A DNA stretch of 32,670 nucleotides from Actinomyces sp. ZJ308 (GTDB lineage: Bacteria; Actinomycetota; Actinomycetes; Actinomycetales; Actinomycetaceae). The translations under genes and the position numbers were made by a program. Each line of letters begins with the position of its first letter. Positions within the stretch are counted from its first letter, which is position 1. The stretch lies in contig NZ_JAAIJY010000035.1 in assembly GCF_011752065.1 (NCBI RefSeq), positions 1 through 32,670 on the forward strand. Direction: 5' to 3'. Shown here one piece after another: positions 4,815 through 24,369 of this stretch. The notes beneath the pieces were generated by a model. The model had not been told where the DNA came from and did no database searches. It saw nothing but the letters and a program-made list of their open reading frames with translations.

Positions 4815-5000
4815 TCGGATCGGGGCTTAGTCCTGCCACTCGGTCTGAGGCAAGTGGAACCAACAACTCAAGTGGCAGGAACGGGGGAACCAACTACCGG
4901 TCGCCCAGGCGGACAGCCCGAGCGACCTTGGGGTGAAGCCCGCACCCGCGGGCCGGACGTCTCCAGTCCGAACCCGACAGCTCACCTCGTCGGCTCAACA
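4815..5000 (+). promoter_or_regulatory. ydaO/yuaA-type c-di-AMP riboswitch
   Basis: The 5' leader of the NlpC/P60 gene contains the conserved pieces of this class in order: GGGGCTTAG (4822-4830), CGGGGGAACCAACTA (4882-4896), GGGGTGAAGCC (4930-4940), and the signature TCCGAACCCGACAGCTCACC (4967-4986). A perfect 10-bp stem, TCCTGCCACT (4831-4840) with AGTGGCAGGA (4871-4880), builds one arm. In actinobacteria this riboswitch usually precedes cell-wall hydrolase genes and turns them off at high c-di-AMP. It ends about 14 nt before the start codon, next to the AGGAGA ribosome binding site, so control could act on termination or on translation. The outer limits are approximate. Confidence 0.88.
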
Positions 5001-5013
5001 GGAGAAAGCATTC

Positions 5014-5826
5014 ATGTCCTCACGCACCATCGCACGTCACCGCAAAGCCACCCGCGCCCTTACCCCACTGGATGACTTTGCTCCCACCGCGCGCCGGGGT
5101 CTGGCGGTCGCCGCATCGTCCGGTCTGGCCCTGACCATGATCGCCTCGGGCGCCAACGCCGCTGGCCGCGCCGAGGTCACGTCCTCCTCCGGAACCATTG
5201 AGGCTTCCGGCGTGACCCCCGGAGTCGGCGTCCTCGCCGCGAACGCTCGCGAGGCACTGGCCGCGCATCAGCAGATCACCATCGCTCAGGCCAGCTGGGT
5301 CACCGAGGCCGCTCCGCAGGTTGAGGCTGTTGCCCCTGCGGCTCCCGAGGCCCCTGCCGCCCCTGAGGCCCCCGCTGCCCCTGAGGCCCCCGCCGAGCAG
5401 AGCACTGAAAGCGCCGGCACCGCTACTGCCGACTACAGCAGCGACTCCGCCGCCACCGAGACCCAGACGACCCAGGCCTCCGCGCCGGCCGTCAGCTCCG
5501 ACGCCTCGGTCGTGGCCATCGCCATGCAGTACGTGGGTGCTCCCTACGTGTGGGGCGCCTCCGGTCCGAGCGCCTTCGACTGCTCCGGCTTCACCTCCTA
5601 CGTGTACGCCCAGGTCGGCATCAACCTGCCCCGTACCTCCGGCGCCCAGGCCGCGGCCGGCACCCCGGTGTCCGCCTCCGAGGCTCAGCCCGGCGACCTG
5701 GTCACCTGGCCCGGCCACGTCGGCATCTACGCCGGCAACGGCATGGTGATCGACGCTGGTAACGAGTCCACCGGTGTGGTCTACCGCGAGCTGTGGGGCT
5801 CCCCGAGCTTCGTCCGCGTCGGCTGA
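5014..5826 (+). CDS. Secreted NlpC/P60 (C40) peptidoglycan endopeptidase
   Basis: 270 residues. A long basic N-terminus (1-30) and a hydrophobic stretch ending near GANAAG (about 46-51) form a secretion signal. A region of about 90 residues follows, with a PEAPAA repeat (five units, about 105-130) and a Ser/Thr-rich linker that probably spans the wall. The C-terminal NlpC/P60 domain covers about 165-270: catalytic C190 in FDCSGF, H235 in GHVGIY, and D247 at the third active-site position (Glu in mycobacterial RipA). Such enzymes cut the D-Glu to diamino-acid bond in stem peptides and act in division or wall turnover. ATG 5014 is chosen because AGGAGA (5000-5005) lies 8 nt upstream; the longer GTG 4933 start would lie inside the riboswitch. 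It forms its own unit, controlled by the c-di-AMP riboswitch and ended by the 17-bp hairpin at 5848. Confidence 0.93.
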   Translation: MSSRTIARHRKATRALTPLDDFAPTARRGLAVAASSGLALTMIASGANAAGRAEVTSSSGTIEASGVTPGVGVLAANAREALAAHQQITIAQASWVTEAAPQVEAVAPAAPEAPAAPEAPAAPEAPAEQSTESAGTATADYSSDSAATETQTTQASAPAVSSDASVVAIAMQYVGAPYVWGASGPSAFDCSGFTSYVYAQVGINLPRTSGAQAAAGTPVSASEAQPGDLVTWPGHVGIYAGNGMVIDAGNESTGVVYRELWGSPSFVRVG

Positions 5827-6029: not shown

Positions 6030-6968
6030 ATGACTGATGGCAACGTCATCCTCGTCGGAGTCGATGGTTCACCCGAGTCCCTGGCAGCAGTGGACTGGGC
6101 CGTTGCGCGCGCCGGGCGCCAGGGCTGGCGCGTTCACATCTTGTGTGCCTACTCCCTGCCCTCCTTCACCACCGCCTCCCTCGACGGCGGTTACGCAGCA
6201 CTTGATGACTCCGCCATCAGGTCCGGTGCCCAGGCCGTCATCGACGAGGCCGTCGAGCGCGTCAAGAAGTCCGGCGTCACCGTCACCTCCTCCCTGGAGA
6301 CCGGCGACCCGGCCGGCGTCCTCGTCGACCTCTCCGAGGAGGCGACGCTGGCCGTCGTCGGTACCCGCGGAGGCGGCGGCTTCGCAGACCGCCTCCTGGG
6401 AACCGTCTCCTCCGCACTGCCGGCGCACAGTCACTGCCCGGCCGTCGTCGTGCCCCAGCGCACCGAGGGGGCCGACTACACGCCGGTGCGTCGTATCGTC
6501 GTCGGCGTGGACGGGTCCTCCTCGGCCCGCAAGGCTCTCAAGTGGGCCGTGGCGGAGGCGGAGGCGTGGGACGCCGAGCTCACGGCCATCGCCGCCGTGC
6601 CGATGGCCTCCGGGGCCGGTGCCCTCGCCTGGCTGCCGGCCGCCGTCGACCGCGAGCAGGTCCTGGCCGATGTCCGCTCCGGGCTCGACCGGGCCATCAG
6701 TGAGGCCCTCGAGGGCCACGAGGGCGTCACGGTGCGCCGTCACGCCCTGGACGGCAACCCGGCCGAGCTCCTGGCCGAGTTCTCCACCGCCGTGGACCTC
6801 GTCGTCGTCGGCTCGCGTGGCCGCGGGGGCTTCTCCGGGCTCCTGCTGGGCTCCACCAGCCAGGCCGTCCTGTCCCACGCCTCGTGCCCGGTCCTGGTGG
6901 CGCCCTCGCACCACCTCAAGGGCGAGCGGCGCACCTCGCGCACCTCCACCCCCTGGGGGCGTGCCTGA
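6030..6968 (+). CDS. Tandem-domain universal stress protein
   Basis: 312 residues made of two UspA domains, about 1-150 and 155-300. Each starts with a V-G-V-D-G-S strand (VILVGVDGSPES; IVVGVDGSSSAR) and ends with the ATP-binding loop G-x2-G-x9-G-[S/T] (GTRGGGGFADRLLGTVSS from G111; GSRGRGGFSGLLLGSTSQ from G261). It is therefore of the nucleotide-binding class common in actinobacteria, where such proteins are tied to dormancy, hypoxia or general stress. ATG 6030 follows AAAGGG at good spacing; the in-frame extension to 5985 has no ribosome site. It stands alone, between two hairpin terminators, so it is probably monocistronic. Binding partner and signal cannot be read from sequence. Confidence 0.92.
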   Translation: MTDGNVILVGVDGSPESLAAVDWAVARAGRQGWRVHILCAYSLPSFTTASLDGGYAALDDSAIRSGAQAVIDEAVERVKKSGVTVTSSLETGDPAGVLVDLSEEATLAVVGTRGGGGFADRLLGTVSSALPAHSHCPAVVVPQRTEGADYTPVRRIVVGVDGSSSARKALKWAVAEAEAWDAELTAIAAVPMASGAGALAWLPAAVDREQVLADVRSGLDRAISEALEGHEGVTVRRHALDGNPAELLAEFSTAVDLVVVGSRGRGGFSGLLLGSTSQAVLSHASCPVLVAPSHHLKGERRTSRTSTPWGRA

Positions 6969-6986
6969 GACCGCCCGTCAATGAGC

Positions 6987-7025
6987 CCGCCGTGCCGACC
7001 GATCTCGTGACGGTCGGCACGGCGG
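6987..7025 (+). terminator. Terminator after the universal stress gene
   Basis: CCGCCGTGCCGACCG (6987-7001) pairs perfectly over 15 bp with 7011-7025, 9-nt loop, starting 18 nt after the stop. No T-tract. Confidence 0.75.
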
Positions 7026-7098
7026 ACTCGTCGTTGCGGCGCCACCCCGGTGCCGGCTGGTCATGGACGGGCCGAAGCACTGGTAGTCTTCCGCTCAG

Positions 7099-7171
7099 GC
7101 CCTCGTAGCTCAGGGGATAGAGCACCGCTCTCCTAAAGCGGGTGTCGTTGGTTCGAATCCAATCGAGGGCA
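7099..7171 (+). tRNA. tRNA-Arg (anticodon CCU)
   Basis: A 73-nt cloverleaf: acceptor GCCCTCG (7099-7105) with CGAGGGC (7164-7170), anticodon stem CCGCT/AGCGG (7125-7129, 7137-7141) around loop CTCCTAA with anticodon CCT at 7132-7134, and T-loop GTTCGAATC. Discriminator A7171; CCA is not encoded. A TAGTCT -10 box (7084-7089) lies 10 nt upstream. It would read the AGG codon. Confidence 0.95.
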
Positions 7172-7350
7172 CTGACACCGGCCGGTTCCTGTCGGCCTCC
7201 GTCGATATCGAGCCGTTCCGGTCATCCCGGAACGGCATCCGGTAGACGTTAGTCGACGGCGCAGTCGTCGCCGGACGACGTCAGCCGTTCCCGGGCCCAC
7301 GGGCGAGCCACGCCCCGGTGCGTCTCCACGCCCAAGGGCCCATCGGCCTA

Positions 7351-7356
7351 TATCTT
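7351..7356 (+). promoter_or_regulatory. -10 box of a leaderless promoter
   Basis: TATCTT, part of TATATCTT (7349-7356), ends 6 nt before ATG 7363. Transcription would start at or next to the start codon, and no ribosome binding site is present. Confidence 0.5.
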
Positions 7357-7362
7357 GACCGT

Positions 7363-10300
7363 ATGACGCCTTCGTTCTTCTCCTTCGGCCGCAAGCGGCG
7401 CGATGCTGCCCTCCGGGAGGATGAGCGCAAGGGTGCCGGAGCCTCGGCCGGATCGGATCAAACCGCGAGCCGACGGCGTTTCGCCGCGGACCTGGGGGCC
7501 CTGGCCGCGGCTCCGAGCGCGCCCGAGCCCACCCCCGAACCGGCGCCTCCCGCCCCCGTGCGCCCCGCGCCCGCACCGCCGCTGAGTGAGGCGGACGTTG
7601 AGCGGCGCGAGCGCATCGACGCGGCCCTGTCCACCTGGCGCGGCCAGCTCGTGGACCTGGGAGGCGTGGCGAGCCTGGACGACATCACCCTGCTCGACGG
7701 CGTCGTCGACCTCACCGCCGCGCACCCCTCGGGCCTGGCCCAGCTCTACGCCGGTCGCCCCACCCACCTGTCCAGCATCGTGCGCGAGCGCAACGCCCTG
7801 GGTGAGGCCCGGCAGTCCCTGCGGGAGGTCTCCGCCCGCACCGACGTCCTCGCCCGCCAGTTCGGTGTCGCACCGGTCTACCTGGCCATCGGGGTCGCCA
7901 CCTGGAACGAGACCGTCCCCGAGGACGGGGAGGACGACGGCGCCGTGCACCTGGTCGACGGCGCCTCGCCGGAGGCCGACCTGACCGCCCAGATCCCACA
8001 CGTCGAGCGCATCGCCGCCGAGCACGCCGCTCGCAACGCCCTGGCGGCCGCCGGCCTGACCGTCCCCGAGGTCCCCTCGGGCCCGCGCGTGCGCACCGTC
8101 AACGCCCCCGTCCTGCTGCGCCCGGTCCGCCTGACCAGCGCCACCGCGGACGCCACCCTCACCCTCGACCCCACGATCGAGGTGAACCCGGTCCTCACCC
8201 GCGCCCTGCGCCGCTACCAGTGCACCACCGACATCGGCGACATCGCCCGCGCCGCCCTGTCCTCGGCGGGCTTCACGCCCCGCTCGGCCCTGGCCCGCAT
8301 CGGTGCCCTGGGACGCCAGTACCTGCCCGGCTTCGAGATCCACGAGCGCCTCGTCGTCGGCGCCTTCGTCCACCCCGGGCAGGCGCTGGTCGAGGACTTC
8401 GACGCCGTCCTGGAGCGCTCGCGCACCTCCGCCCTGGTCGCGGCCATCGCCGGGGACGAGGGCGCCCGCGAGGCCCTCAGCATCGAGCTGCCCCCGCCGG
8501 TGCCCACCGACCGGGTCCCCGGAGCCGAGCGCGGCGTGGGCGACCTGGAGCCGGCTCAGCTCGACGTCATCGAGTCCGTGGGTACCGGAGCGAGCTTCCT
8601 CATCGACGCGCCCCCCGGCTCCGACGTCGCCGGCACCCTGGCCGCCGTCTTCGCCGACGCCGCCGCCTCCGGGCGCACCGTGCTGCACGTGCCCGCCACC
8701 AGTGCCGACGGCCACGCCGTCGCGGCCGCTCTGCGCGAGGAGGGCCTGGGGTCCATGGTTCTGGACCTCACCGAGGACGCCGCCTGGCGCCAGCACGCCT
8801 CCGAGGGCATCCGCGAGAGCCTGGGCGTCCAGCCGCCCCAGCTCGACGTCGCCGAGATCATCTCCCAGCGCGACCGTCTCACCACCGTCCGCTCCCGCCT
8901 GGACCGCTACGTGCGGGCCCTGCACCGGCCCCGCGAGCCCTGGTCGGTCTCCGCCTACGAGGCCCTCCAGAAGCTCGCCGAGCTCACCAGCCGCCGCGAC
9001 CGGGCGACCACCCGGGCCCGCATCGATGCCGAGCACCTGGGCCGCCTCGACGAGGACGGCAGGGACGGGGCCCTGGCCCTCCTGCACCGCGGGCACGCCC
9101 TGGGCCTGTTCACCCCCGAGGTCTCCTCCAGCGCCTGGAACGGGATCCCGGTGGCGGACATGGATGAGGCCACCGACGCGCTCGTCCACCTGCGCGCCCT
9201 GGCCAACGACCTGCTGCCCACCATCGAGGAGCACACGGCCACGGTGGCCCGCACCACCGGCCTGAGCCGGGCCCGCAACCTCGGCCAGTGGATCGAGCAG
9301 CTCGACATGTTCGACGGCGTGCGCGAGTCCCTGGACGTCTTCCTGCCGGAGGTCTTCGAGCGCTCCGCCGCCGACATGGTCATCGCCACCGCCTCCAAGC
9401 GCTGGCGCGACGACCGGGGCATCCACATGGACGGCTCGCGGCGCCGCCGCTTCACCCGCCAGGCGGGCGACCTCGTGCGGCCGGGGCGCGTCGTCGACGA
9501 CCTGCACGCAGAGCTGGTCAAGGTCCAGCGCCGCCGCGAGGTGTGGCGCCGCCACGACCCCGACGGAGGCTGGCCCCGCCTGCCCCAGGGCCTGGACGAG
9601 ATGCGTCGCACCGCCGGCCGGGCGCGCGGCGCCGTCGCCGAGGTCCAGCCGCTCCTGGGGAGGGCCCCGGACTCCCCGGTGCTCATGGAGATGCCCTTGG
9701 AGGACCTCCTGGAGCTCGCCGGCTCGCTGGCCGCCGATGACCTCACCGCCCAGAAGCTCCCGGAGGTCAACCGCATCCGCACCGATCTCGAGGCTCTGGG
9801 ACTGAGCGACTTCGTGGCCGACATGGCCGCCCGGAGCATCGAGGACGAGCAGCTCGAGCCCGAGCTCACCTACTGCTGGTGGTCCTCCCTGCTGGCCCAG
9901 ACCCTCGCGGCCGACCCCGACCTCGGCGGGCTCGACGCGCGCGCCCTGTCCCAGATGGCCGTCTCGCTGCGCGAGCTCGACGCCGCCCACACGCGCTCCC
10001 TGTCCGGCCCCGTGGCCCAGGCCTGCGCCCGCCGGGTGCGCGCCGCCGTCGAGCAGGACAAGGCCGACGCCCGGGCCCTGTACATCGCGCTGGCCCGCGA
10101 GGACGGCGTCCCGCTGCGCGAGATCATCGACGCCCACCCCATGGCCCTCCTCGCCCGGCCGATCTGGATCGTCCCGCCCACGCTCGTGCCCCAGATCTTC
10201 TCACCGACCGCGGTGGTGGACCTGGCGGTCCTGGACGCCTCCACGCCCATGCCGGTCCCGCAGGTGCTGCCCGCCTTCGTGCGCGCCGAGCAGGTGCTCG

Positions 10301-11676
10301 TCGTCGGCGACTCCCGGCGGGCGACGACGGGCCTGGCCACCGAGCTCGGCCCGCTCCTGCCCGCCCGCACCCTGCCGACGGCCCGCAACAGCCTCGACGC
10401 GGGCATCGCCTCCTTCCTGGCGGCCAACGGCTACGAGGGCGTCGTCGAGGCGGTGCCCTCCCCGCCGGGGGAGGCCCACCTGTCCCTGGAGCTCGTGGAC
10501 GGGCGGGGCATGCCGGCCCCCGGGCAGACCGCGGTCGAGACCGTGGAGGCCGAGGTCTCCCGCGTCGTCGACATGGTCATCGACCGGGCCCTGACCCGGC
10601 CCGAGGAGTCCCTGGGCGTCATCGCCCTCAACCGCCTGCACGCCGACGCCCTGCGCTCGGCCATCACCCGGGCGGCCGCCGGCGCCCCGGCCCTGGAGGA
10701 GTTCTTCGCCCCCGGCGCCGCCGAGCCCTTCACCGTCGTTGAGCTGGCCGAGGCTCGTGCCCTGCGGCGCGACCACATCATCATCTCGGTGGGCTACGCC
10801 AAGACCCCGCACGGGCGCACCATCCACAACTTCGGTCCCGTCTCCGACCACAGCGGCATGGTGGGGCTGGTCGAGGCCCTGTGCGCCTCGCGGGGAAGCA
10901 CCCAGGTGGTCTCCTGCCTGGCTGCCGGCGACATCGACCGCGACCGCCTGCGCGCCCCCGGGGCGCGCCTGCTGCGCGAGGTGCTGGCCCGCGCCGAGGA
11001 CGCCTCCCAGACCGGCAACTCGGCCGGCAAGGTGCCCGACCGGCTCCTGGTGGACCTGGCCGAGCACCTGTGGCGCAAGGGCCTGTCCGTCGTCCCCCGC
11101 TACGGGACCGACGGCGGCGTACGCATCCCGCTGGCCATCGGCCACCCCGACTACCCCGACGAGCTGCTGGTGGCGGTCCTGACCGACGACGTCGACTACA
11201 TTTCCGAGCCCAGCCTGCGCCGGCGTGACCGCCACCGCGTCGAGCGCCTTGAACGGCGCGGCTGGCGCGTCCACATGGCCTTCTCCGCCGGGGTCTTCGT
11301 GGACCCGGAGGCCGAGGCCAAGGCCGTCGAGGAGCTCGTCCTGGCCGTCCTCGTGGAGCGCCAGGGAGATGCCGCCCCACCCATGGAGGCCGTTCCCGAC
11401 CGCGTTGACGACTCGGCGCGCGCCGTCCCGGAGGCGCCCGAGCCCGAGCCCGGTGAGGCGCCCGAGCGTACCGAGCGCCCCCGCATCGCCCAGGGGCTGC
11501 CGCTGCAGGCCTATTCCGATGACCAGCTCGACGACCTCATGGCCTGGATCCGCTCCGACGGCGTGGGGCGTTCCGAGGCTCGGGAGGTCGAGGAGCTGAG
11601 GTCCGCCCTGGCCCTGCGTCGTCGCGGCTCGGGGATTGACGCCGTCCTGGCCAACGCCGTGCGGCGCACCCGCTGA
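7363..11676 (+). CDS. Large helicase/nuclease-like protein with degenerate catalytic motifs
   Basis: 1437 residues. After a charged Pro-rich start (1-80), about 85-330 resembles the DUF4011-type N-terminal domain of large COG1112 helicases. The superfamily-1 helicase order then follows, with key residues changed. The Walker A position reads DAPPGSDVAGT (415-425), with V422 where Lys is needed. Walker B reads LAVLDAST (954-961), with A959 replacing the catalytic Glu. Motif III reads GDSRR (982-986) instead of GDxxQ. A motif-VI-like FGPVSDHSG block lies at 1157. The C-terminal part (about 1215-1330) has the layout of the Vsr-like MTES_1575 nuclease, but RIDLAV has become RIPLAI (P1256), IECDG has become VLTDD (L1273), and the YHS His is I1280. 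Helix 525-1000 region is divergent. The ATG 7363 start is supported by a leaderless-type promoter. The gene is intact and long, so a binding, non-enzymatic role is likely. The fold assignment is by motif spacing only. Confidence 0.8.
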   Translation: MTPSFFSFGRKRRDAALREDERKGAGASAGSDQTASRRRFAADLGALAAAPSAPEPTPEPAPPAPVRPAPAPPLSEADVERRERIDAALSTWRGQLVDLGGVASLDDITLLDGVVDLTAAHPSGLAQLYAGRPTHLSSIVRERNALGEARQSLREVSARTDVLARQFGVAPVYLAIGVATWNETVPEDGEDDGAVHLVDGASPEADLTAQIPHVERIAAEHAARNALAAAGLTVPEVPSGPRVRTVNAPVLLRPVRLTSATADATLTLDPTIEVNPVLTRALRRYQCTTDIGDIARAALSSAGFTPRSALARIGALGRQYLPGFEIHERLVVGAFVHPGQALVEDFDAVLERSRTSALVAAIAGDEGAREALSIELPPPVPTDRVPGAERGVGDLEPAQLDVIESVGTGASFLIDAPPGSDVAGTLAAVFADAAASGRTVLHVPATSADGHAVAAALREEGLGSMVLDLTEDAAWRQHASEGIRESLGVQPPQLDVAEIISQRDRLTTVRSRLDRYVRALHRPREPWSVSAYEALQKLAELTSRRDRATTRARIDAEHLGRLDEDGRDGALALLHRGHALGLFTPEVSSSAWNGIPVADMDEATDALVHLRALANDLLPTIEEHTATVARTTGLSRARNLGQWIEQLDMFDGVRESLDVFLPEVFERSAADMVIATASKRWRDDRGIHMDGSRRRRFTRQAGDLVRPGRVVDDLHAELVKVQRRREVWRRHDPDGGWPRLPQGLDEMRRTAGRARGAVAEVQPLLGRAPDSPVLMEMPLEDLLELAGSLAADDLTAQKLPEVNRIRTDLEALGLSDFVADMAARSIEDEQLEPELTYCWWSSLLAQTLAADPDLGGLDARALSQMAVSLRELDAAHTRSLSGPVAQACARRVRAAVEQDKADARALYIALAREDGVPLREIIDAHPMALLARPIWIVPPTLVPQIFSPTAVVDLAVLDASTPMPVPQVLPAFVRAEQVLVVGDSRRATTGLATELGPLLPARTLPTARNSLDAGIASFLAANGYEGVVEAVPSPPGEAHLSLELVDGRGMPAPGQTAVETVEAEVSRVVDMVIDRALTRPEESLGVIALNRLHADALRSAITRAAAGAPALEEFFAPGAAEPFTVVELAEARALRRDHIIISVGYAKTPHGRTIHNFGPVSDHSGMVGLVEALCASRGSTQVVSCLAAGDIDRDRLRAPGARLLREVLARAEDASQTGNSAGKVPDRLLVDLAEHLWRKGLSVVPRYGTDGGVRIPLAIGHPDYPDELLVAVLTDDVDYISEPSLRRRDRHRVERLERRGWRVHMAFSAGVFVDPEAEAKAVEELVLAVLVERQGDAAPPMEAVPDRVDDSARAVPEAPEPEPGEAPERTERPRIAQGLPLQAYSDDQLDDLMAWIRSDGVGRSEAREVEELRSALALRRRGSGIDAVLANAVRRTR

Positions 11677-18587: not shown

Positions 18588-18660
18588 GGGGCTATGGCGC
18601 AGTTGGTAGCGCGTCTCGTTCGCAATGAGAAGGTCGGGGGTTCGAATCCCCCTAGCTCCA
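18588..18660 (+). tRNA. tRNA-Ala (anticodon CGC)
   Basis: 73-nt cloverleaf: acceptor GGGGCTA (18588-18594) with TAGCTCC (18653-18659), which includes the G3-U70 pair that marks tRNA-Ala. The anticodon loop is TTCGCAA with anticodon CGC, and the T-arm is GGGGGTTCGAATCCCCC. Discriminator A18660 is followed by CCA (18661-18663), which may be encoded. A terminator follows at once. Confidence 0.96.
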
Positions 18661-18667
18661 CCACATG

Positions 18668-18706
18668 AGGGTCTGCCCCGCCGAGAGGATCGGCGGGGCA
18701 GACCCT
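18668..18706 (+). terminator. Terminator after tRNA-Ala
   Basis: AGGGTCTGCCCCGCCGA (18668-18684) pairs perfectly over 17 bp with 18690-18706; the loop is GAGGA and TTTCC follows the stem. Confidence 0.88.
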
Positions 18707-18797
18707 TTCCCGTTCCGGGCCGGAGACGTACGAGTCGGTTCCGGGTCCACCGATAGGATCCCGTCACATCGTGGGGTGATGAGTTAAGAGAGGCGAA

Positions 18798-18908
18798 GTG
18801 GCGAGGAGCCGCCGGACGGCGCGCAGTGCCGAGTTGACCGACCTGGTGCACGTTCACCGCGCCGTCGAGTCCGGCCGCAGCACCGGCAAGGTCGTCCTGC
18901 TCCCGTGA
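18798..18908 (+). pseudogene. Remnant of a zinc-type alcohol dehydrogenase/quinone reductase C-terminus
   Basis: A 36-codon frame (GTG 18798, stop 18906-18908) ends ELTDLVHVHRAVESGRSTGK followed by VVLLP. This is the usual last stretch of medium-chain zinc-dependent dehydrogenases (aeAHraLEsG...GKvVL.p). An in-frame stop lies just upstream (18780-18782) and the rest of the enzyme is absent, so it is read as a decayed fragment, not a working gene. It marks the 18661-19106 gap, otherwise non-coding, as a rearrangement point between tRNA-Ala and the polysaccharide operon. Confidence 0.6.
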
Positions 18909-18914
18909 CGACGC

Positions 18915-18950
18915 AGTGATTTCAATCACTCGAAATCGACGTTGGTCGAT
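18915..18950. promoter_or_regulatory. Two adjacent inverted repeats upstream of the polysaccharide operon
   Basis: AGTGATTTCAATCACT (18915-18930, 7-bp arms, 2-nt centre) is followed 4 nt later by ATCGAC-GTTG-GTCGAT (18935-18950). They lie about 155-190 nt before the first gene of the operon and could be regulator sites. A TATCCT -10-like box (19058-19063) lies between them and the start. Confidence 0.35.
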
Positions 18951-19106
18951 GGAAGTGCGCGGATTTGCGCGGACTCCCATGGCCGTCGGCGTGTTGTGGC
19001 AACCGGCCGGGATGGGGATGTTGCCCCTAACGCGATCGGTGCCGGCCGTCCGGTGCGTATCCTGGAACAGAAACCAACCAAGTGGACTGTTAACTGGAGA
19101 AGCACC

Positions 19107-20414
19107 GTGCTGCAGCATGATCGGATGGGCCGTCGTAATTTTCTGATGGGCGGTCTCGCCTTGGCTGCCTCGAGCACACTTTTACCCGAGGCAATGCAGC
19201 TCACGGCCCATGCCTCTCCCGTCCTCCCAGCAGCGCCGGCCGCCGGCCCTCCCATACGGCAGCCGCAGGCGGTGCTCTCCGACATGCAGGACCCGCGCGC
19301 CTGGGTCCTCTCCTCCGACGACGGCTCCATACGGCCCGACACCTCCACCTACTCCCACGGGACCCAGTCGCTGGAGATCACCACCACTGACGATCCCGAC
19401 CGACCCACCAGCGCCGACCTCGCCCTGGTGGGCGTCGACATGACCGACTGCCAGTGGGACCTGTGGCTTCGCGCTGAGGACTACCGGCAGATCGGAAGCA
19501 TCCTGCTCGAGCTCGGCGGGGACGGCGAGGACTGCCTGCGCCTCGACGTCGCTCCCGACATGCGCACGCTGCGCACCGGGACCTGGTGCCGGGTCACTGT
19601 CAACCGCGCCGCGACGCGCTCCGTCGTCGGCAGCCCACTGCTGGAGCGGGTGACGAGGGTGAGGCTGAAGGTCGTCCCCGAATCCGACTCGTCCCCGAGC
19701 CGGATCTGGCTCGGGTACCTGGCCACCCTGCCCTCGGCCGACAGCGGCATCGTCTCCATCTCCTTCGACGACGGCTACGACAGCGACTACGACACGGCCC
19801 GGGGCATCATGCAGCGCTACGGCATCCCCGCGGGAACCTCCTACGTCATCGCCGACAAGGTCGGGTTGCCGGGCCGTATGAGCAACGACCAGCTTGCCGA
19901 GATGCGAGAGGTCCATGGCTGGGACATCGCCGCTCACGCCTCGGCAGATCTCACCACGCTCGACGAGCCGGGGGTGCGCAAGGAGTTCGGGACCATCAGG
20001 GCCTTCCTCCTGGACCACGGGTATCGCGACGGCGCCGCCCACTTCGCCCTGCCCATGGGCCGTTACAACGAGCTCGTCCTGCGCGTGTCCCAGGACTACT
20101 TCAACTCGCTGCGCACCATCGACGTCGCCCCGGAGACCCTCGCGCCGGGGGACCCGTACCGGCTGCGCGTCTTCTACTGCGGTGCCTACACCACCGAGGA
20201 ACAGGTGGAACGGACCCTGGCCAAGTGCCGGGAGCACCGTTGCTGGACCCACATGGTCTTCCACCGGGTCGATAAGGACCCCGACGACGCACCCGAGTCG
20301 GTGGGGGCCGCCAGCTTCAAGCGGTTCATGAAACGCGTGGCTGAGTCCGGCCTGCCCGTCAAGACGGTTTCGGAGGTCATGCGCAGTCAGGCGCCCGCCC
20401 CCGCCCCGGACTGA
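19107..20414 (+). CDS. Tat-exported polysaccharide deacetylase-like (CE4/NodB) protein
   Basis: 435 residues from GTG 19107, which has GGAGA 6 nt upstream. The N-terminus carries a twin-arginine signal (GRRNFLMGGLALAASS, about 8-23), so it is probably exported folded. Residues about 50-215 look like a beta-sandwich, possibly carbohydrate-binding, domain (HGTQSLEITTTDD ... WLRAEDYRQIGSILLELGGD). The NodB-like domain follows (about 216-425): motif 1 is SFDDGYD (219-225, D221 D222). Motif 2, normally H-[ST]-x-x-H, reads HASAD (H277, D281), so the second metal-binding His is missing. Motif 3-like ALPMGRYN follows. CE4 enzymes remove N-acetyl groups from GlcNAc in polymers. It is the first of a three-gene operon with ugd and a hyaluronan-synthase-like gene, which suggests that product as its substrate. 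Activity is uncertain because of the altered motif. Confidence 0.85.
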   Translation: MLQHDRMGRRNFLMGGLALAASSTLLPEAMQLTAHASPVLPAAPAAGPPIRQPQAVLSDMQDPRAWVLSSDDGSIRPDTSTYSHGTQSLEITTTDDPDRPTSADLALVGVDMTDCQWDLWLRAEDYRQIGSILLELGGDGEDCLRLDVAPDMRTLRTGTWCRVTVNRAATRSVVGSPLLERVTRVRLKVVPESDSSPSRIWLGYLATLPSADSGIVSISFDDGYDSDYDTARGIMQRYGIPAGTSYVIADKVGLPGRMSNDQLAEMREVHGWDIAAHASADLTTLDEPGVRKEFGTIRAFLLDHGYRDGAAHFALPMGRYNELVLRVSQDYFNSLRTIDVAPETLAPGDPYRLRVFYCGAYTTEEQVERTLAKCREHRCWTHMVFHRVDKDPDDAPESVGAASFKRFMKRVAESGLPVKTVSEVMRSQAPAPAPD

Positions 20415-20501
20415 GGCCGACGTCGCGCGCCGCCCCGGGCACCCATCCCCAGTCCTCCCTTCCGACCTTCCCGAATCGCCTGATACGGATGGATTGACTG
20501 C

Positions 20502-21824
20502 ATGAACATCACTGTCATCGGTTGCGGCTACCTTGGAGCCGTCCACGCCTGTGCCATGGCCGAGCTGGGTCACCGCGTCGTCGGTGTCGACGTCGACCAG
20601 GACAAGGTCGACGCCCTCGCCCAAGGGCGGGCCCCCTTCCATGAGCCGGGATTCACCGAGATCCTGCGACGACGGATCGAGGCAGGCGGACTGATGTTCA
20701 CGACCGACTTCTCGGCGATCTCCGGGGCGCAGGCCCACTTCATCGCCGTCGGTACGCCGCAGGGCCCCGATGGGGCCGCGGACCTGACCTACGTTGACGC
20801 CGCCGTTGAGGCGATGAGGCCGTACCTGGGGGCGTGCCTCGACGGCGACGAGGTCGTCGTGGGCAAGTCGACCGTCCCCGTGGGCACGGCCGCCCGTCTG
20901 GCCCCGACCATCGCCGCCTCAGGAGCCCTCCTGGTCTGGAACCCCGAGTTCCTGCGTGAGGGGTTCGCCGTCGAGGACACCTTGAACCCCGACCGCATGG
21001 TCTACGGTCTGCCGGAGGAGCCGGCCGGCGCCGAGCGCGCCACGGCCGTGCTGGACGAGCTCTACGCTCCCATCATCGAGTCGGGAACGCCCCGACTCGT
21101 CATGGACTACGCCACCGCCGAGCTGGTCAAGATCAGTGCCAACGCCTTCCTGGCCACGAAGATCTCCTTCATCAACGCCATGGCCAGCGTGTGCGACGCC
21201 GCCGGTGGGGACGTCACCGCGCTGGCCCGGAGCATCGGGATGGACGCTCGGATCGGCGGTCGTTTCCTGCGGGCGGGGATCGGCTTCGGCGGCGGCTGCC
21301 TGCCCAAGGACATCCGCGCCTTCCGGGCCCGGGCCGATGAGCTCGGCGTCGGCGAGGCGCTGAACTTCCTCGCCGAGGTGGACCAGATCAACGAGGACGC
21401 CCGCCACCAGACCCTGGACAAGGCCAGGAGCATGCTCGGCGGTTCGGTGAACCGGGCGCGCGTGGCGGTGCTCGGCACGACCTTCAAACCCAACAGCGAT
21501 GACATGCGGTGCTCGCCCGGCCTGGCCATCGCCGCCGAGCTGGCTGACGAGGGCGCCCGGGTGGTTGTGACCGACCCCGCTGCCGCACCGATCCTCGCCC
21601 ATGACGACGATCTGCCCTACGACGTCGCGGCCGATCTTGAGGAGGCGCTGACCGCGGCTGACCTGGTCCTCCTGGCGACCGAGTGGGACCAGTACACCCG
21701 GTGCGACCCCTCCTGGGCGGCTGCCCTCGTCGACAGGCGCAACGTCGTCGACGGACGTAACGCCTTGGACCCCGAGGCGTGGCGGAGGGCGGGCTTCGCC
21801 TACGCCGCTGTCGGCTCTCGGTAG
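20502..21824 (+). CDS. ugd: UDP-glucose 6-dehydrogenase
   Basis: 440 residues. It oxidises UDP-glucose to UDP-glucuronate with 2 NAD+. The N-terminal Rossmann fold is plain (VIGCGYLGAVHACAMAELGH, residues 4-23), the acidic residue for the NAD ribose lies in GVDVDQDKV, the substrate loop in FLREGFAVEDTLNPDR, and the catalytic Cys is C266 in GFGGGCLPKD. The C-terminal domain holds LGTTFKPNSDDMRCSP, the conserved UDP-binding stretch. Length is normal. ATG 20502 has GGATGG upstream at about 10 nt. It lies 87 nt after the deacetylase-like gene and 42 nt before the glycosyltransferase, so a single transcript is likely; its product would be one of the two sugar donors if that transferase makes hyaluronan. 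Confidence 0.96.
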   Translation: MNITVIGCGYLGAVHACAMAELGHRVVGVDVDQDKVDALAQGRAPFHEPGFTEILRRRIEAGGLMFTTDFSAISGAQAHFIAVGTPQGPDGAADLTYVDAAVEAMRPYLGACLDGDEVVVGKSTVPVGTAARLAPTIAASGALLVWNPEFLREGFAVEDTLNPDRMVYGLPEEPAGAERATAVLDELYAPIIESGTPRLVMDYATAELVKISANAFLATKISFINAMASVCDAAGGDVTALARSIGMDARIGGRFLRAGIGFGGGCLPKDIRAFRARADELGVGEALNFLAEVDQINEDARHQTLDKARSMLGGSVNRARVAVLGTTFKPNSDDMRCSPGLAIAAELADEGARVVVTDPAAAPILAHDDDLPYDVAADLEEALTAADLVLLATEWDQYTRCDPSWAAALVDRRNVVDGRNALDPEAWRRAGFAYAAVGSR

Positions 21825-21866
21825 CCGCTGCGGCCATCAATCCCTTCGACACGGAAGGACTGGCGC

Positions 21867-23381
21867 ATGCCCTGGTCATTCGGATTCTTCGTCATGCTCG
21901 GCTGCCTTCTCATCCTTCTGGCCTGCCTCGCGGTCAAGACGCTGTTCAAGCGCGGGATGGACCTTAAAGCAGTGCGGGTCCGCAGCGCGGGAGGCCGTCG
22001 GGTGGTCACTGTGCGAACGCCTGTGGCGACGCGGGCCGAGGCGCAGCGCTGCGCGGACGACACCGGGATGCCGCGGGCGCTCATGGGGATCAGTCGTCCC
22101 TCGCCCGCCATCATGGTCACTGTGGGCCTGGCCGGCTGGCTGTCCTGGCGAGTGCTGGTCAGCCGGCACCACGTCCTGGACCCGTGGGCCGTGTGGACCT
22201 TCGACCTCCTCTTCCTCCTCGTCGCCGTCCAGCTGGTGCTGGCCTGCTTCGAGGGGCGCGTGGTCGGCGGGGGTGAGGCGTATCGGGTCGCCGTGCTCAT
22301 CCCGCTCTACAACGAGGACCCCGACGTCGTGGTGCGGATGCTCTCCGCCCTGCTGAACCAGAGCTTCCCGCCGGCCGAGATCCACGTCGTCGACGACGGC
22401 TCCACCCAGGGCTCCTACCTGGAGCAGCGGGACTGGTTCATCGAGCAGGCCGCGGTCAGCGGCATCTACGCCACCTGGCAACGGACTGCCAACGAGGGCA
22501 AGCGTCACGCTCAGGTCCATGGCTTCAGGAAGATCCGCGACGCCGACCTGTTCGTGACCGTCGACTCCGACTCCATGCTCGACGCCGAGGCCCTGCGCGA
22601 GATCGTCCAGCCCTTCAGTGACCCCCGGGTCATGTCGGTTGCCGGCGTCATCCTGGCGATCAACAACCGGGAGAACCTCCTGGCACGGGTGACCGACGTG
22701 ATCTTCGTGGGGCAGCAGCTCGTCGACCGCGCCTTCATGTCTCAGCTCGGGTCGGTGATGGTCAACTCCGGTGGTCTGGCCGCCTACCGGTGCAGCATCC
22801 TGGCTGAGAACATCGACGTCTACATGAACGAGAGGTACCTGGGGCGGCACGTGGAGTTCTCCGACGACTCCATGCTGACGCTCTTCGCCCTGCTCCACGG
22901 CAGGACCGTCCAGCAGCCCTCGGCCTTCGCCTTCGCGTGGATGCCCGACCGGTGGAGCCACCACTACCGCCAGCAGGAGCGCTGGTTCCGCGGCTCCTTC
23001 ATCCGCGGACTCTGGCGCATCCGCTTCCTGCCGCTCCTCTCATGGGGGTGGTGGAGGCAGGCCACCGGCTGGATGCAGATCTGGGCGGTGTCCTCGGTGT
23101 TCGTCTACCTGGTGCTCTGGCGTCCGCTCGCCACCGGCAACGGCGTTCCTCTCGCGGTGGCGCTGGTGCCCCTCATGATCGGGCTGGCCCAGAACTCGAG
23201 GTACCTCAACGTGTGGCGGTCGGACACCACCGGCTTTCAGAGGCGCGTGAGCCTCATCCTGTCTCCGGCGGCGACGCTCTGGTCGGCGCTCATCCTGCGA
23301 CCCCTGCGGGTGTGGGGCATGGTCACCAGCTGGAAGATGGGGTGGAACACCCGTCAGCAGGTCGAGGTCACCTCTCGGTGA
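21867..23381 (+). CDS. Membrane glycosyltransferase family 2, hyaluronan-synthase-like
   Basis: 504 residues. Three N-terminal membrane helices (about 5-22, 74-93, 108-127) precede a cytoplasmic GT-A domain (about 130-350), and three or four C-terminal helices follow. Every processive-synthase motif of hyaluronan synthase is present: VVDDGS, NEGKRHAQ (209-216, matching streptococcal HasA NxGKRHAQ), DSDS (233-236), SGGLAAYR (301-308; SGPLSIYR in HasA), SDDSMLT (332-338; GDDRCLT in HasA), and the polymer-channel motif QQERW (369-373). Chitin synthase/NodC relatives share some of these, so the polymer could be hyaluronan, another GlcA/GlcNAc polymer or a homopolymer; the adjacent ugd favours a glucuronate-containing one. 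ATG 21867 follows GGAAGGA. It is longer than streptococcal HasA (about 420) because of the extra N-terminal membrane region. Confidence 0.88.
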   Translation: MPWSFGFFVMLGCLLILLACLAVKTLFKRGMDLKAVRVRSAGGRRVVTVRTPVATRAEAQRCADDTGMPRALMGISRPSPAIMVTVGLAGWLSWRVLVSRHHVLDPWAVWTFDLLFLLVAVQLVLACFEGRVVGGGEAYRVAVLIPLYNEDPDVVVRMLSALLNQSFPPAEIHVVDDGSTQGSYLEQRDWFIEQAAVSGIYATWQRTANEGKRHAQVHGFRKIRDADLFVTVDSDSMLDAEALREIVQPFSDPRVMSVAGVILAINNRENLLARVTDVIFVGQQLVDRAFMSQLGSVMVNSGGLAAYRCSILAENIDVYMNERYLGRHVEFSDDSMLTLFALLHGRTVQQPSAFAFAWMPDRWSHHYRQQERWFRGSFIRGLWRIRFLPLLSWGWWRQATGWMQIWAVSSVFVYLVLWRPLATGNGVPLAVALVPLMIGLAQNSRYLNVWRSDTTGFQRRVSLILSPAATLWSALILRPLRVWGMVTSWKMGWNTRQQVEVTSR

Positions 23382-23523
23382 GCCGGCAGTCGGCCGCGTG
23401 TCCCGGAAGGGCCTGCCTGGCGACATCCGATCGCTTGGCCGCGTCGGGCCGGGTGCCCCGCGTCGTCGGCGGATGATCGTATCGGTGTACTGCCGGTTCC
23501 TCAGAAGGTCGTGGTCGTGGGGC

Positions 23524-23529
23524 TACTGT
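23524..23529 (+). promoter_or_regulatory. -10 box of a leaderless promoter
   Basis: TACTGT (TAnnnT) ends 6 nt before ATG 23536; no ribosome binding site is present. Confidence 0.45.
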
Positions 23530-23535
23530 GTTGCG

Positions 23536-24369
23536 ATGAGCTATCGGATGGAGATGGAGGCCGCCGAGTTCCTGCGCACGCGTAGGGACCGCATCGCCCC
23601 GGGGCAGGTGGGGCTGGCCGGCGGTGGGCGCCGTCGGGTTCCCGGACTGCGCCGCGAGGAGGTCGCCATGCTCGCGGGCATCAGCGTCGAGTACTACTCC
23701 CGGATGGAGAGGGGTGACCTCGACGGCGTGTCCCTGGAGGTGCTCGATGCCCTCGCCCGCGCCCTGAGGCTCGATGAGGCCGAGACGGACCATCTCCACG
23801 ACCTCGCCCGTACCGCCGGGCCGCTGCCGCGGTGGCGCCAGCCTCAGGAGCGGACGGTCAGGCCCAGCCTGCAACGGTTCCTCGACTCGGTGACGGAGAC
23901 ACCCATGTGGGTGCGGGACCGGCGCCTGGACTTCGTCACGGCCAACCCCATGGGGCGCGCGCTGTTCGCGTCCATGCTGGACGATCCCGTCAGCCGGGGC
24001 AACACGGCCCGGTTCACCTTCCTCAACCCCGCCTCACGGGAGTTCTTCCCGGACTGGGAGGACAGTGCCGACGGCGTCGTGGCCACGATGCGCACCTACC
24101 TCGGCCAGAACCCGCAGGATAAGAGGCTGAGCGACTTGATCGACGAGCTGGTCGCGCGCAGTGAGGCGTTCCGACGCCGGTGGGTCGAGCACAATGTGCG
24201 CCACCACCGCACCGGCATCAAGCGGATGCACCACCCGGTGGTCGGCGACCTGGAGCTGACCTACGAGGCGATGGACTTTCCGGCCAACCCGGACTGGTTC
24301 CTGTTCGCCCTGACTGCGGAGCCGGACTCACCGACCGAGCAGAGGCTCAGGGCCCTGGTCGGTCGGTGA
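23536..24369 (+). CDS. XRE-family regulator with MmyB-like ligand domain
   Basis: 277 residues. The helix-turn-helix (about 9-80) contains RRRVPGLRREEVAMLAGISV and YYSRMERGDLDGVSLEVLDA, the standard start of MmyB-like XRE regulators. The rest (about 105-270) matches the MmyB-type ligand-binding domain, with TPMWVRDRRLDFVTANPMGRA, RFTFLNPASREFFPDWED and a close in PANPDWFLFALTAEP. These regulators often control a neighbouring oxidoreductase or hydrolase, so the converging hydrolase (24435-25460) or the reductase beyond it are candidate targets. ATG 23536 is chosen because the HTH starts there and a leaderless-type -10 box precedes it. The last codons and stop lie inside a 20-bp hairpin (24317-24380). 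Confidence 0.92.
   Translation: MSYRMEMEAAEFLRTRRDRIAPGQVGLAGGGRRRVPGLRREEVAMLAGISVEYYSRMERGDLDGVSLEVLDALARALRLDEAETDHLHDLARTAGPLPRWRQPQERTVRPSLQRFLDSVTETPMWVRDRRLDFVTANPMGRALFASMLDDPVSRGNTARFTFLNPASREFFPDWEDSADGVVATMRTYLGQNPQDKRLSDLIDELVARSEAFRRRWVEHNVRHHRTGIKRMHHPVVGDLELTYEAMDFPANPDWFLFALTAEPDSPTEQRLRALVGR

Follow-up and report, generated by a model that had tools for sequence, protein, structure and literature searches.

The window analysed here, a stretch of 32,670 nucleotides that makes up the whole of contig NZ_JAAIJY010000035.1 of Actinomyces sp. ZJ308 (C26 in a genome of 3.28 Mb in 80 contigs), carries three genes encoding a carbohydrate esterase family 4 (CE4)-like protein, a UDP-glucose 6-dehydrogenase-type protein (UGD) and a membrane glycosyltransferase of family 2 (GT2). 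All three open reading frames lie on the + strand, with gaps of 87 bases between CE4 and UGD and 42 bases between UGD and GT2 (Table 1). A preliminary description had read them as an operon for hyaluronan or a hyaluronan-like polysaccharide, consisting of a CE4-like protein exported by the twin-arginine (Tat) route, a UGD and a transferase with the full set of hyaluronan synthase (HAS) motifs. The co-directional order, the short gaps and the general nature of the three proteins are confirmed by family matches, the CE4 N-terminus and the predicted fold, and every quoted GT2 motif is present. Nevertheless, those motifs do not identify a HAS. A synthase-plus-CE4 module with an optional UGD is real and conserved, and its synthase is HAS-like in build and belongs by its residues to a third branch, set apart from both HAS and NodC. 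The earlier interpretation is partly supported, and hyaluronan is not the likeliest product.

Table 1. Features of the synthase locus and its left flank (positions in the window)
Feature	Position	Strand	Remarks
tRNA-Ala(CGC)	18588..18663	+	left neighbour of the locus
CE4-like gene	19125..20414	+	start ATG 19125; begun at GTG 19107 in the preliminary description
Leader directly 5' of UGD, GATACGGATGGATTGACTGC	20482..20501	+	near-repeat of the GT2 leader
UDP-glucose 6-dehydrogenase-type gene (UGD)	20502-21824	+	optional in the locus
GT2 leader, GACACGGAAGGACTGGCGC	21848..21866	+	a similar leader precedes GT2 in G011 (with UGD) and in five UGD-less loci (L035-L038, L040)
GT2 membrane synthase gene	21867-23381	+	processive-type, 504 aa

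The GT2 protein matches the Glyco_tranf_2_3 family (E 2.7e-18). An N-terminal transmembrane (TM) helix (5-26) with a small extra segment is followed by TM 79-99, TM 106-127, the GT2 domain (about 137-390) and a C-terminal TM region with W-N-T-R at 493-496, an arrangement in which one GT2 domain is joined to a TM channel, as in class I HAS. The motifs lie at NEGKRHAQ 209-216, DSDS 233-236, SGGLAAYR 301-308, SDDSMLT 332-338 and QQERW 369-373. In a structure model of the protein (pLDDT 85.8, pTM 0.89) the nearest solved fold is that of HAS, cellulose and chitin synthases showing lower likeness. Taken together, these features describe a putative single-chain processive membrane synthase, as judged from its predicted fold.

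The residues that bear on hyaluronan synthesis were compared in an alignment of 79 rows, in which the HAS references were CvHAS and XlHAS1 and the 14 Actinomyces rows were the intact copies from 13 genomes, two of them from G031, with the broken G003 copy left out. GKR, DxD and QxxRW are all present in the window protein (K212, D233/D235, Q369..R372 W373), but they are not diagnostic of HAS because they also occur in NodC, and a hyaluronan product was rejected as a conclusion from the motif match alone. The gating loop W-G-T-R is found as WNTR, with Gly changed to Asn, in 14/14 Actinomyces copies (WGTR in CvHAS, WGTS in XlHAS1, WLSR in NodC); since W-G/N-T-R occurs in 69/79 rows, this motif is broader than HAS. 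The residues that do identify HAS fail in all 14 Actinomyces copies: GDDR (CvHAS 300-303) is replaced by SDDS, the channel-entrance Arg (XlHAS1 R287) by Ile (Ile279 in the window), and both cysteines (XlHAS1 C307 and C337) by Val (Val299 and Val329), while a second Arg (XlHAS1 R296) is kept as R288 in 14/14. I279, V299 and SDDS 332-335 thus form the third-branch signature of the window protein. In the available text of PMC11750622, GDDR is stated to be invariant in HAS, the channel glucuronic acid (GlcA) lies close to XlHAS1 R287 and R296, C307 lies beside the acceptor and its replacement leaves little, uneven product, and C337 is replaceable.

Across the 79 rows, SDDS was counted in 51 (the 14 Actinomyces rows, 19 database proteins, 17/18 phage rows and L171), NDDS in 5, GDDR in 16 (CvHAS, XlHAS1, L139, L142, L176-L179 and eight more), GEDR in 3 (NodC), SDDR in 2, GDDT in 1 and another form in 1 (PgaC). 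In the 56 SDDS/NDDS rows the R287 site holds Ile, Leu, Trp or Met; it is Glu in NodC, PgaC, L140, L141 and L182-L185, and Arg in nine rows, namely CvHAS, XlHAS1, L139, L142, L176-L179 and an odd phage row (L128, GDDT); all of these nine but L128 combine GDDR with Cys at the C307 site. The latter site is Val or Ile in 56/56 SDDS/NDDS rows and Cys in CvHAS, XlHAS1, L139, L142, L176-L179 and also NodC, among which only CvHAS, XlHAS1 and L142 have Cys at the C337 site. On the aligned residues, some other actinobacterial proteins pass the HAS test, whereas all the intact Actinomyces copies examined fail it.

NodC is the best NCBIfam model for the window protein, at 133 bits against a cut-off of 550 (about 30% identity), and the PgaC/IcaA equivalog reaches 61 bits against 422, so neither identity is reached; a poly-N-acetylglucosamine (PNAG) synthase was ruled out on the latter score. 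In the tree, with a warning about long branches, NodC groups with HAS (6 rows, support 87), outside a 71-row group (98) holding the third branch. The clear grouping with chitin/NodC or PNAG synthases by which the preliminary description was to be judged is not seen. Of the six HAS-residue rows only L142 groups with HAS, L139 and L176-L179 falling in the 71-row group.

From ATG 19125 the CE4-like protein begins with MGRRNFLMGG, a twin-arginine N-terminus, and continues with a CBM11/galactose-binding-like beta-sandwich (about 46-204) and a CE4/NodB domain (about 205-424; Polysacc_deac_1, E 1.3e-8) in which the NodB fold is recognisable. The metal triad of CE4 enzymes, D-H-H, follows the rule HxxxH. 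In the window protein D215-D216 and H271 are kept and position i+4 is D275, an Asp being found at the second metal His position in 13/15 aligned CE4 rows. The UGD protein shows three UDPG_MGDP_dh domains (E 6e-51, 3e-30, 4e-26), scores 387 bits as NDP-sugDHase (cut-off 189.8) and carries GGGCLPKD, an instance of the GGxCxxKD motif that holds the catalytic Cys; its best named models, TuaD and AglM, all stay under their equivalog cut-offs, so its substrate is inferred.

Within the genus, GT2 is present in 14/37 genomes (the window's own included), one copy being broken (G003, an A. oris), and the eight named loci from a contig scan are all Actinomyces: A. johnsonii, A. naeslundii, three A. oris, oral taxa 170 and 448, and a metagenome-assembled genome. 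CE4 is found in 11 of the 14 GT2-bearing genomes (one a remnant) against 0/23 genomes without GT2 (Fisher p 4e-7, relatedness not corrected), and adjoins GT2 where present. UGD, on the other hand, lies beside GT2 in only 4/14 (window, G011, G028, G031) and, being absent from the other ten loci, was discarded as a constant operon member. Where the CE4 match contains a stop, in G016, G020 and G028, this is no gene break but the natural end of a shorter gene. In A. oris WE8B-23 (L042 5762-6962) CE4 is down to a 3' remnant and GT2 is in pieces, so that this single strain has naturally lost the module. G031 (L146 7330-11476) has two GT2 genes in tandem, of which the second, called at 821 aa, is greatly extended at its N-terminus.

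The history of UGD can be partly traced. The in-locus UGDs of the window, G011 and G028 group together in a single clade (100/100) congruent with the GT2 tree, which places UGD in the locus before these three split and implies its loss at least in the clade of G001, G026, G025, G010 and G007 (99); as it is also missing in G020, G016, G023 and G034, and the G031 UGD is not firmly placed, other gains or losses must have taken place. The five UGD-less loci compared retain the GT2 leader, and a similar leader stands 5' of UGD in the window, so that recombination between the two would excise UGD exactly, a possible route of loss; G028 and G031 carry other GT2 leaders. No GT2 residue is common to the four UGD-plus copies and absent from the nine UGD-minus copies (second G031 copy left out), and residue swaps tracking UGD were accordingly ruled out. 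Against close relatives, dN/dS is 0.12 for UGD (one comparison), 0.22-0.34 for CE4 and 0.23-0.27 for GT2, rising up to 0.47 against more distant loci, values that indicate purifying selection on all three genes. The values of 0.12-0.34, together with GT2 orthologues in 13 further Actinomyces genomes (one broken), argue that the locus is not due to chance.

The explanation that we consider best, and hold with about even confidence, is that GT2 and CE4 form a two-gene core making a neutral, N-acetylglucosamine (GlcNAc)-containing and partly deacetylated polymer, with UGD as an option. GT2 would polymerise a UDP-sugar at the cytoplasmic face and pass the chain through its own membrane channel. 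CE4, presumably exported folded by Tat in the window species, would hold the emerging chain with its sugar-binding-like N-terminal domain and remove N-acetyl groups. Most probably the polymer contains GlcNAc and is mainly neutral until it is deacetylated, and it would serve as biofilm or capsule slime, similar to the NodC/NodB chitosan-type or IcaA/IcaB PNAG-type products in logic and not in linkage. UGD would be an optional cassette, whose UDP-GlcA in the window strain goes into this polymer as a small component or into other glycans of the surface. Since the site at which HAS contacts GlcA is hydrophobic here, a mostly neutral chain is the simpler guess. As quoted in the available text of PMC8927782, the extracellular polysaccharide of A. 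viscosus contained 62% GlcNAc, 7% galactose, 4% glucose and 3% uronic acid (Rosan and Hammond 1974) or, in a second report, 39% galactose, 37% GlcNAc, 19% glucose and 5% mannose with no uronate listed (Imai and Kuramitsu 1983); so far as these quotations go, the slime fits a GlcNAc-rich polymer better than hyaluronan. As no PgaC/IcaA match exceeds the cut-off in 36 searched genomes (24 of Actinomyces), the GT2 locus is a fair candidate for its synthesis. Among open-licence papers, none was found that assigns a synthase to the GlcNAc-rich slime of plaque Actinomyces, none on hyaluronan synthase in Actinomyces by title or abstract start, and none on this enzyme in Saccharibacteria; the one paper found to link Actinomyces with polysaccharide deacetylases and glycosyltransferases concerns mangrove viruses.

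Several observations weigh against this explanation. None of the 14 Actinomyces genomes with GT2 is without a UGD of at least 55% identity somewhere. A type-A UGD (at least 64%) is present in 12/14, four having it within the locus and eight at another site, and no genome at both (Fisher p 0.015); among the other genomes it is present in 8/23 (p 0.0055). Both tests ignore relatedness. This complementarity is a pattern expected if UDP-GlcA is needed. The UGDs outside the locus that were checked (G007, G020, G025, G034) are surrounded by other genes for surface polysaccharides, the 10 neighbour proteins scanned including a flippase gene, ABC-2 transporters, glycosyltransferases and Mur ligase-like genes, and in G034 also a second UGD-type gene. 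With HxxxD in place of the second metal histidine, CE4 may not be a standard deacetylase; the CE4 of G016, G020 and G028 shows, by eye, neither a Tat nor another signal at its likely start, and three GT2 genomes have no CE4 (G023, G031, G034). The slime chemistry comes from other strains than the window's. The position of L139 and L176-L179 within the 71-row group means that the ancestor of the third branch may have been HAS-like, and the Arg of QxxRW, which in HAS sits near the carboxylate of the donor according to the available text of PMC11750622, is kept, though also in NodC.

It has also to be considered whether GT2 is a HAS-like heteropolymer synthase that alternates GlcNAc (or glucose) with GlcA supplied through the neighbouring UGD; its product would be hyaluronan, a type-3-capsule-like chain or a partly de-N-acetylated GlcA/glucosamine polymer. 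We regard this as possible but doubtful. The nearest fold, the W-x-T-R gating motif, the kept arginines of IFH1 and QxxRW and the complementary placing of UGD speak in its favour, as do the presence of in-locus UGDs in two different lineages within Actinomyces (window/G011/G028 and G031) and a locus of another actinobacterium, L179, in which a GT2 with HAS residues adjoins an NDP-sugar dehydrogenase and CE4. However, GDDR, the channel Arg and both cysteines are absent from all 14 intact Actinomyces copies, UGD is missing from most loci with no GT2 residue tracking it, the slime as quoted holds little uronate, the L179 dehydrogenase scores nearer UDP-ManNAc than UDP-glucose dehydrogenases, and the flanks fetched for 31 viral GT2 loci, at most about 8-10 kb long, contain no UGD. 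A strict hyaluronan capsule, the narrowest form of this alternative, has the HAS fold and the UGD neighbour on its side and is nonetheless improbable, since the HAS-diagnostic residues fail in every intact Actinomyces copy whereas six other actinobacterial GT2s do have the Arg, the switch-loop Cys and GDDR.

A further reading, as possible and as doubtful as the heteropolymer, is that the third branch of HAS/NodC-type processive synthases (SDDS, W-x-T-R, a hydrophobic residue in the channel and no Cys in the switch loop) makes an undescribed polymer and has moved between oral Actinomyces, Saccharibacteria and actinophages. In even samples, own genome included, the GT2 family occurs at E 1e-40 or better in 12/396 genomes from the phylum and at E 1e-60 in 16/394 from the class. 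In a 52-row tree, nine Actinomyces GT2s fall in a 31-row clade (97/92) with all five named Saccharibacteria proteins, one Corynebacterium cystitidis protein and 16 others, outside which lie Streptomyces, Pseudonocardia, Carbonactinospora and the phages. Saccharibacteria live on Actinomyces as epibionts. Relatives occur in 31 viral records, Streptomyces phage Kromp (L102, 9743-11254; 47-49% identity to the window protein) and the 30 contigs L104-L133 (38-50%); CE4, like UGD, was found in 0/31 of their fetched flanks, and phage loci carrying either gene were thereby ruled out. Were this reading true, host, epibiont and phage would share, build and cut one surface glycan, and proteins joining a CBM to CE4 would be both host trimming enzymes and virion tail or turret enzymes.

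Less probable still is an origin of the module in a phage or an epibiont, with a role in altering the surface (phage adsorption, epibiont attachment) rather than in bulk slime. Its kinship with Saccharibacteria and phage proteins bears on dealings of epibionts and phages with the host surface. Against this origin, the Actinomyces GT2s form one clade apart from the phage rows, the genes show purifying selection, and window DNA flanks the locus in 6/9 relatives compared (L035, L036, L038, L040, L042, L103). No integrase was found by family search among 15 window proteins, and a prophage or island with att sites at tRNA-Ala was ruled out, the tRNA 3' end not being repeated within the window.

Some neighbourhoods of these kin deserve mention. 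NDP-sugar dehydrogenases lie in the fetched stretch of 3/23 bacterial loci outside Actinomyces (L179 and L185, both from one genome, and L184) and CE4 in 1/23 (L179). The L179 GT2 (G754:C1:6796329-6813534, 6499-11161) carries the Arg, switch-loop Cys, GDDR and WGTR. The same Arg, Cys and GDDR are found in L139, L142 (WGTQ) and L176-L178; on these residues all six may be actinobacterial HAS candidates. A GH26-like gene lies directly 3' of GT2 in 4/9 viral loci with the neighbour scanned (L119, L121, L130, L133) and in the chromosomal L171. Among the 20 of 63 rows listed, the phage match with the best E-value to the Actinomyces CE4 lies in phage DolZOral124_53_65 of an oral TM7 bacterium (L208 2147-3682), within a tail gene set. 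A Haloferax CE4+GT2 neighbour pair was rejected as a parallel, its GT2 being of another type (27% over 131 aa).

Between tRNA-Ala and CE4 (window 18664-19100) lies a stretch whose length differs among relatives, from about 0.4 kb in the window to about 7 kb with an AbiH gene in A. oris WVU627 (L103 170-7470), and which is a possible hot spot for insertions. Just 3' of GT2, on the same strand, stands an MmyB-like (MLTR) regulator (23398-24369), which is not a constant member of the locus since the nucleotide match ends at or shortly past the GT2 end in nine relatives compared. A search for sigma-70 promoters and terminators found none, a scan of little information either way. Elsewhere the window holds a cyclic di-AMP (ydaO/yuaA) riboswitch (4855-5010, 59.8 bits) at the start of ORF 4933-5826, and a gene for a 1452-aa protein (7318-11676) with a C-terminal REase_MTES_1575 domain, adjoining tRNA-Arg.

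GT2 and CE4 offer a concrete candidate pair for the slime of plaque Actinomyces, in which related species differ naturally in UGD; the A. oris and A. naeslundii loci examined have none beside GT2. Moreover, three residues sort HAS-type, NodC-type and third-branch synthases, and the name 'hyaluronan synthase' given by one source to members of this family is open to question.

Among known systems, class I HAS (CvHAS, Xenopus HAS1) is the best fold match, sharing one GT2 domain with a channel-forming TM region, GKR, DxD, the IFH1 ER, QxxRW and W-G/N-T-R; the Actinomyces protein differs in SDDS for GDDR, Ile (Leu, Trp or Met in kin) for the channel Arg, Val for both cysteines, and an extra N-terminal TM and segment. 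NodC with NodB also pairs a synthase with a CE4 neighbour and provides the top NCBIfam model, but NodC has WLSR for W-x-T-R, Glu at the channel site, GEDR and the switch-loop Cys, and is a separate lineage. The logic of GT2 plus CE4 is likewise shared with PgaC/IcaA and PgaB/IcaB and with Streptomyces MatB, MatAB making, in the available text of PMC5972031, a GlcNAc polymer with a biofilm role; the one PgaC aligned is without the W-x-T-R gating motif, and the window protein falls far short of the PgaC/IcaA cut-off. Finally, the HFTV1 turret and phage glucosaminyl deacetylases show the same two-domain order, a sugar-binding-like sandwich and then CE4; the turret aligns across nearly the whole CE4 protein, and phage genes cover up to 87% of it among the matches listed. 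Unlike the turret, with which it shares 16% identity, the Actinomyces CE4 has a Tat N-terminus and adjoins a synthase rather than a virion gene set.

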